Shown here one piece after another: positions 10,945 through 58,734 of a DNA stretch of 64,000 nucleotides. The notes below the pieces were generated by a model. That model saw only the letters and a list, made by a program, of their open reading frames with translations. It did not search any database and had not been told where the DNA came from. How positions within the stretch are numbered: the stretch's first letter is position 1; each line of letters opens with the position of its first letter. The position numbers and the translations under genes were made by a program. Origin of the DNA: Imbricaverruca yamaguchii (taxonomy: Eukaryota > Arthropoda > Thecostraca > Neoverrucidae); the NCBI GenBank assembly GCA_034440575.1, contig JAOTOL010001626.1, forward strand, positions 1,140,001 through 1,204,000, given 5' to 3'.

Positions 10945-11138
10945 ATGACCGCCAGGGCGCCGCCGGACGCCTCTCTCGAGCTGCGCTGGATCTTCGGCTA
11001 CAATGGCGCCGCGGCGCGCAACGTGCACTTCGTCGCCGCCGACGTGGTCGTGTACTTCACGGCCGGCGTGGGCGTGGTGTACCGACTGGGCGAGCGGGCG
11101 CACCGGTACTTCCTGGGCCACAACGACGACATCACCAG
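10945..11138 (+). CDS. EML6: EML exon 1, start codon and HELP motif of unit 1
   Basis: ATG at 10945 ([15 protein letters not shown]), donor ACCAG|GTGGGT. It contains [25 protein letters not shown] and [10 protein letters not shown], close to the EML6 N-terminus, which also starts a few residues before the Trp. This fixes the start. Confidence 0.93.

Positions 11139-58734: not shown

Follow-up and report, generated by a model that had tools for sequence, protein, structure and literature searches.

Tandem arrays built from exon borders in an EML gene of the barnacle Imbricaverruca yamaguchii, with a comparison of dynein heavy chain genes

Many exons of an EML gene in the barnacle Imbricaverruca yamaguchii are bordered by tandem repeats in which the repeat unit looks like a copy of the exon's own edge. 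This raises the questions of how such arrays are formed, whether exon borders are favored as their birthplace and how a correct mRNA could be made from a gene in which the same splice site is written many times. The gene lies in a stretch of 64,000 nucleotides that was analyzed as a whole and is called the window here (G000:C1393:1140001-1204000 of a 767-Mb assembly); positions without a contig name refer to it.

Spliced alignment to two EML proteins of Pollicipes pollicipes (P0099 and P0096) and to a 37-residue crayfish piece, with GT/GC-AG introns allowed, places an EML5/6-type gene at 10945-58731 on the plus strand. The model has 29 coding exons with a mean length of 167 bp and, with the end of exon 10 corrected, a coding sequence of 4857 bp without an internal stop; the intron after exon 21 requires a GC donor (GC-AG). 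HELP domain matches are located at about 10960 and at 34659. Among the matches listed, which cover at least 120 relatives, the top identities (63% and 66%) belong to two Pollicipes pollicipes records. P0099 and P0096 jointly span nearly the same protein as the single gene here.

We considered a border to be copied if a 28-mer across it recurred with at most seven mismatches in its own intron or in the adjoining 40 bp of either exon. The raw search finds such copies for 16 of the 56 internal EML borders. The exon 10 acceptor was dropped from this set, as the AG is kept in none of its 11 copies, and the final count is 15 of 56 borders copied in the adjoining intron, splice dinucleotide included. 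Both border types take part: the acceptors of exons 3, 8, 14, 17, 20, 21, 22 and 23, and the donors of exons 6, 7, 9, 17, 20, 21 and 24. A sequence-only reading of the window had named fifteen such places in the gene, and 13 of them are among those found here. Its exon 11 donor is borderline (best copy with eight mismatches, a level of eight or fewer that 0.7% of null pairs reach), and its exon 25 donor is not seen (13 mismatches) and possibly corresponds to exon 24 of the present model. The acceptor of exon 23 and the donor of exon 24 were absent from its list.

The copies are local. Not one of 1512 border-intron pairs yields a copy of an EML border in a foreign intron, and local copies are found for none of 28 exon midpoints and for 146 of 336 random intron points. 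At eight borders the best-matching copy agrees with the border in all 28 compared bases. By TRF only, 12 of the 56 borders have at least four exonic bases inside an array and 11 have at least eight; the unit lengths at the borders range from 10 to 80 bp. An all-against-all blastn search of 13 border arrays gives no cross-hits. The units are thus specific to their locus within the gene, as the sequence-only reading had proposed in stating that each array was built from its own border and that the arrays are mutually unrelated. Arrays with at least eight exonic border bases, in which the repeat unit holds both exonic and intronic junction sequence, number 11 in EML and nine in the cytoplasmic dynein gene DYNC1H1 described below. 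The observation that EML exon borders are copied locally, in their own introns, is therefore confirmed.

All of the EML border arrays are given on the plus strand. The most extensive acceptor array, at 44374-47635, leads into exon 20 (start 47619) with a 35-bp unit, 93 TRF copies and 17 exonic bases; the 28-mer search counts 85 copies, and AG is present in 84 of 84 under a looser search. Exon 22 (start 51580) is preceded at 50273-51587 by 26.8 TRF copies of a 49-bp unit with eight exonic bases, and exon 23 (start 52900) at 52381-52908 by 17 TRF copies of a 31-bp unit with nine. The array at exon 8 (21076-21872; exon start 21826) has an 80-bp unit that includes 46-47 exonic bases, and nine copies; at a looser cut-off, AG is present in nine of ten. 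Shorter arrays are located at exon 14 (34495-34682; start 34658; 62-bp unit, three copies, 25 exonic bases), exon 17 (38362-38729; start 38721; 25-bp unit, 13 copies, nine exonic bases) and exon 21 (48521-48663; start 48635; 41-bp unit, 29 exonic bases). The acceptor of exon 3 (start 12585) is a weaker case, in that 12431-12584 consists of a degenerate array (TRF 12431-12548, period 42) plus flank and holds one copy, with six mismatches in 28.

On the donor side, the array at exon 21 (48858-49263; exon end 48879) has an in-frame unit of 45 bp with 22 exonic bases and is the one that needs the GC-AG intron. The donor of exon 24 (53680-54090; end 53690) has a 24/72-bp unit with 11 exonic bases. 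In three donor arrays GT is present in some of the copies: five of eight at exon 7 (20085-20320; end 20088; 23-bp unit, 10.3 TRF copies, four exonic bases), three of five at exon 17 (38845-39090; end 38878; 37-bp unit, 34 exonic bases) and two of five at exon 20 (47864-48069; end 47885; 30-bp unit, 22 exonic bases). Two donors are weaker cases: exon 6 (18352-18453; end 18359) has one copy 74 bp downstream, with three mismatches in 28, and the array at exon 9 (23817-24168; end 23817; 10-bp unit, 35 TRF copies) overlaps the exon by only a single base.

Three open frames of 121-241 aa, possibly the remains of a mobile element, also lie at 41661-43848 on the minus strand, in the intron that precedes exon 20 (6.7 kb).

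Arrays of this kind have a precedent, so that the claim of the sequence-only reading that the phenomenon was undescribed does not stand. Minisatellites that span exon-intron boundaries, named mirages, are described in the accessible parts of PMC3087553 and PMC3902484 for the amphioxus Adh3 gene, the globins BflGb6/9 and other loci, to which the second paper adds PGBD5 and troponin C. According to the same parts of these papers, the units are 10-72 bp in Adh3 and 150-160 bp in BflGb6/9, the AG or GT is present in many but not all copies, and splicing is reported to be regular. The barnacle arrays resemble what is described there in having tandem junction copies on the donor or acceptor side and a unit length that varies from gene to gene. 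They differ in belonging to another phylum, in affecting 15 of the 56 borders of one gene plus nine of the 104 borders of another and in reaching up to 85 copies; as far as those texts go, they also differ in having been counted here against null models. Length instability and RNA are reported for the amphioxus mirages in these sources, whereas the barnacle arrays are known from one genome assembly alone. Ordinary intronic minisatellites or VNTRs have units of similar size and occur in the same genes, but include no exon edge. In the titles and abstract openings of the open-licence literature we found no report of border arrays in barnacles or crustaceans, nor genome-wide counts. The barnacle border arrays are a member of the mirage kind in another phylum.

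We therefore consider it likely that the barnacle arrays are mirage-type minisatellites that come from local tandem duplications spanning the junction, with the extra copies becoming intron and exon definition keeping the proximal copy. A short segment lying across the exon-intron junction, roughly 10 to 90 bp long, would be duplicated in tandem, and the array would then grow by slippage or unequal exchange. Within the searched stretch (the intron with 40 bp of exon on either side), the copies do sit in the intron beside the real junction. Such a change would be tolerated if splicing keeps to the junction at the exon body and removes the extra copies as part of the intron. Presumably the same process fills the interiors of introns with arrays that touch no exon.

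Because EML had been chosen for the pattern, dynein heavy chain genes outside the window, picked as such before their repeats were inspected, were taken as a comparison. The part of DYNC1H1 that aligns to residues 441-3628 of Pollicipes P0121 has 53 exons (G000:C1365, minus strand); among the matches listed, its identity is 84% to Pollicipes and 72-78% to the next crustaceans. Nine of its 104 borders are copied in their own intron and none of the 104 in one other intron each; copies are also found for 65 of 520 random intron points and two of 51 exon midpoints. The first axonemal dynein (DNAH) gene, on C1193, is hardly above its null, with two of 32 borders copied as against one of 32 in another intron; its random intron points and exon midpoints have copies in 21 of 160 and none of 17 cases. 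The first and last of its 19 predicted exons were left out, as were the first 25 kb with a 5-kb N run, and one of its two copied borders (seven mismatches, one copy) was excluded from the frame analysis. For the fourth gene region, on C1370, the alignment relied on a distant paralog (17-64% identity over the exons), which makes its borders less certain; the analysis took in 18 of the 20 introns predicted for it.

The DYNC1H1 array at the intron-34 acceptor was dropped, because the exon in which it lies has a one-base frame break. This break, in exon 35 (G000:C1365, minus strand), is the only one in an otherwise clean 53-exon alignment and represents either an assembly error or an allele. With this array the DYNC1H1 count below would be ten of 36; it is still included in the collapsed profile, the distance-bin counts and the TRF swap test.

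Other features of the assembly were seen along the way. An uninterrupted dynein heavy chain frame of 4734 aa, which we take to be DNAH5/8-like, is present without introns on the minus strand of G000:C1340:1394001-1414000, and a second intronless frame of 4283 aa, presumably dynein-2-like, is present on C1347. Paralogs elsewhere match in numerous short exons, and the array content of the two 20-kb stretches is below 1% in each; these frames are possible retrocopies. A near-complete match to COX1, which covers positions 1-435 of 436 and contains 12 TGA codons, lies at G000:C996:270910-272247, minus strand, within a 405-kb contig, and is either a mitochondrial insertion or a mis-joined mitogenome.

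Whether borders are favored depends on what is counted. Measured per base, array coverage is lower at borders than in introns: arrays make up 43% of the EML intron sequence, 4.9% of the exon sequence and 32% of the part of the window that lies outside the gene, and the intron base adjoining the border is inside an array at 13 of 56 EML borders, which is below the intron level. Copies point the same way in DYNC1H1, where the share of copied borders (nine of 104) is below that of random intron points (65 of 520). Minisatellites are also dense upstream of the gene (180-10433), for example at 8948-10433 with a 42-bp unit. In plain coordinates an array is present at 26 of 50 points 200 bp into the EML introns, at 16 of 50 at the border and, 40 bp into the exon, at one of 50. 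This smooth gradient and the high array content of the introns are what would be expected if there is nothing special about borders, that is, if dense intron minisatellites must reach some exon edges and are cut back there by purifying selection.

Counting per array gives the opposite sign, because expanded copies inflate the number of intron bases. In this test each array was counted once, its unit was placed randomly, all intronic bases being permitted, and a border array was one with at least eight exonic bases. EML has 11 of 53 arrays on borders as against 4.75 expected (P 0.003) and DYNC1H1 has nine of 35 as against 2.5 (P 0.0003), whereas for the two axonemal dynein genes together the excess is not significant (three of 36 as against 1.8, P 0.24), a result that again would suit unremarkable borders. 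For the four genes pooled, 23 of 124 arrays are on borders as against 9.0 expected, a number that none of 20000 simulations reaches; outside EML the figure is 12 of 71 as against 4.3 (P 0.0004). Thus, under a uniform birth model, arrays overlap borders beyond chance, also outside the window in DYNC1H1. That borders are the main target is not supported, since 101 of the 124 arrays do not reach eight bases into an exon and borders are the less covered per base; overall, the interpretation of the sequence-only reading is partly supported.

Base composition explains part of this excess. The GC content of array-free windows spanning borders is 0.62, compared with 0.49 deep in introns. With GC weights, which are rough since they derive from 55 deep arrays, the expectation rises to 11.3 for the four genes (23 seen, P 0.0003) and to 5.4 outside EML (P 0.0025). 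GC as the sole cause was therefore rejected, as the weighting takes away only a part. Overshoot by TRF is minor (at least eight bases into a foreign exon in 11 of 550 swaps). The median period is 24 for non-border arrays and 43 for border arrays. In collapsed coordinates (three genes, the one dubious array included), coverage falls with distance: it is 24 of 192 at the border itself, 8 of 190 when 100 bp away and 1 of 182 at 150 bp, and in the three genes it stays between 1 and 6% from 150 to 400 bp. This fall and the per-array excess in EML and DYNC1H1, GC-weighted as well, argue against borders that are nothing special, and we regard that explanation as rather unlikely.

Array births, or survivors, therefore appear concentrated at exon edges, at about 2 to 2.5 times expectation. 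The excess rests on EML, which was found because of the pattern, and on DYNC1H1; in the null models births are uniform along collapsed introns, and neither dilution by transposons nor the deletion of interior arrays is taken into account. An unlikely explanation is that survival and not birth is responsible: arrays near exons would persist as deletions there would also hit the exon, and transposons would dilute the deep intron. In keeping with this, arrays at least 200 bp from a border number 35 as against 54.5 expected (three genes, one dubious array included here and in the next counts). However, the border excess persists in introns of up to 2 kb (17 as against 6.8), and the border itself (22 as against 7.5) exceeds the next 100 bp (37 as against 26.7) in ratio, where dilution should be small. 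We tentatively suggest, as a possibility to be kept in mind, that in this lineage junctions are hot spots for the birth of tandem duplications, that splice sites have been multiplied gene by gene throughout the genome, that exon definition tolerates this and that introns grow from their edges.

How the spliceosome would find the right copy is the remaining part of the question. Copies identical over 28 bases, as at eight EML borders, imply that local sequence may not discriminate and that position probably does. The exons are near 170 bp and the median introns 1.1 kb, and exon definition with short exons and long introns would pick the proximal site. Exon definition would thus be the most likely selector, the pair of sites bounding the shortest exon winning. 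Of the 25 copied borders (15 in EML, nine in DYNC1H1 and one in DNAH), 20 are such that a switch to the nearest of the other copies would change the reading frame, so at those 20 the proximal copy would be needed for a productive mRNA. Proximal-copy use is what we infer from homology and frame.

That the extra copies are used, with alternative splicing among them as a regulated or protein-diversifying device, we regard as very unlikely. The other five nearest copies are in frame, for example, at the donors of EML exon 21 (45-bp unit) and of DYNC1H1 intron 27 (51-bp unit), but the share that shifts the frame is near the neutral two thirds. Within the copies, the columns of the splice dinucleotides are slightly better preserved (474 of 500 cells) than the remaining intronic columns (4074 of 4500), which could hint at copy use, although the copies had been picked by their similarity to the border.

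It is highly improbable that the arrays mark introns made by tandem duplication of an AGGT-like site, a type of model that is in print (PMC3087553 and PMC4974935, as far as their accessible parts show), since, over 96 introns, the sequences around an intron's donor and its acceptor agree at no more than 14 of 24 positions (no more than 12 for the sequence after the donor against that after the acceptor, and no more than 14 for the other two arrangements) and since a blastn comparison of the two arrays gives no hit in any of the three introns that carry one at each end. As far as the available portions of those sources describe it, intron creation from AGGT segments (Rogers 1989; Gao and Lynch 2009; the potato RdRp case) shares with the barnacle arrays the tandem duplication of splice-site-like sequence, but it makes a new intron, whereas the barnacle arrays multiply existing junctions and the signature of gain is absent.

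In conclusion, the mirage-type arrays of this barnacle extend what was an amphioxus curiosity to a crustacean genome, at a much higher density and with counts against null models. Junction arrays may also disturb gene annotation; compare the separate Pollicipes records P0099 and P0096 with the one EML gene here. The 85 near-identical acceptors in a row before exon 20 make positional splice-site choice directly testable, and, if junctions are indeed hot spots of array birth, exons that face dozens of near-identical sites would be natural experiments on how the spliceosome chooses.
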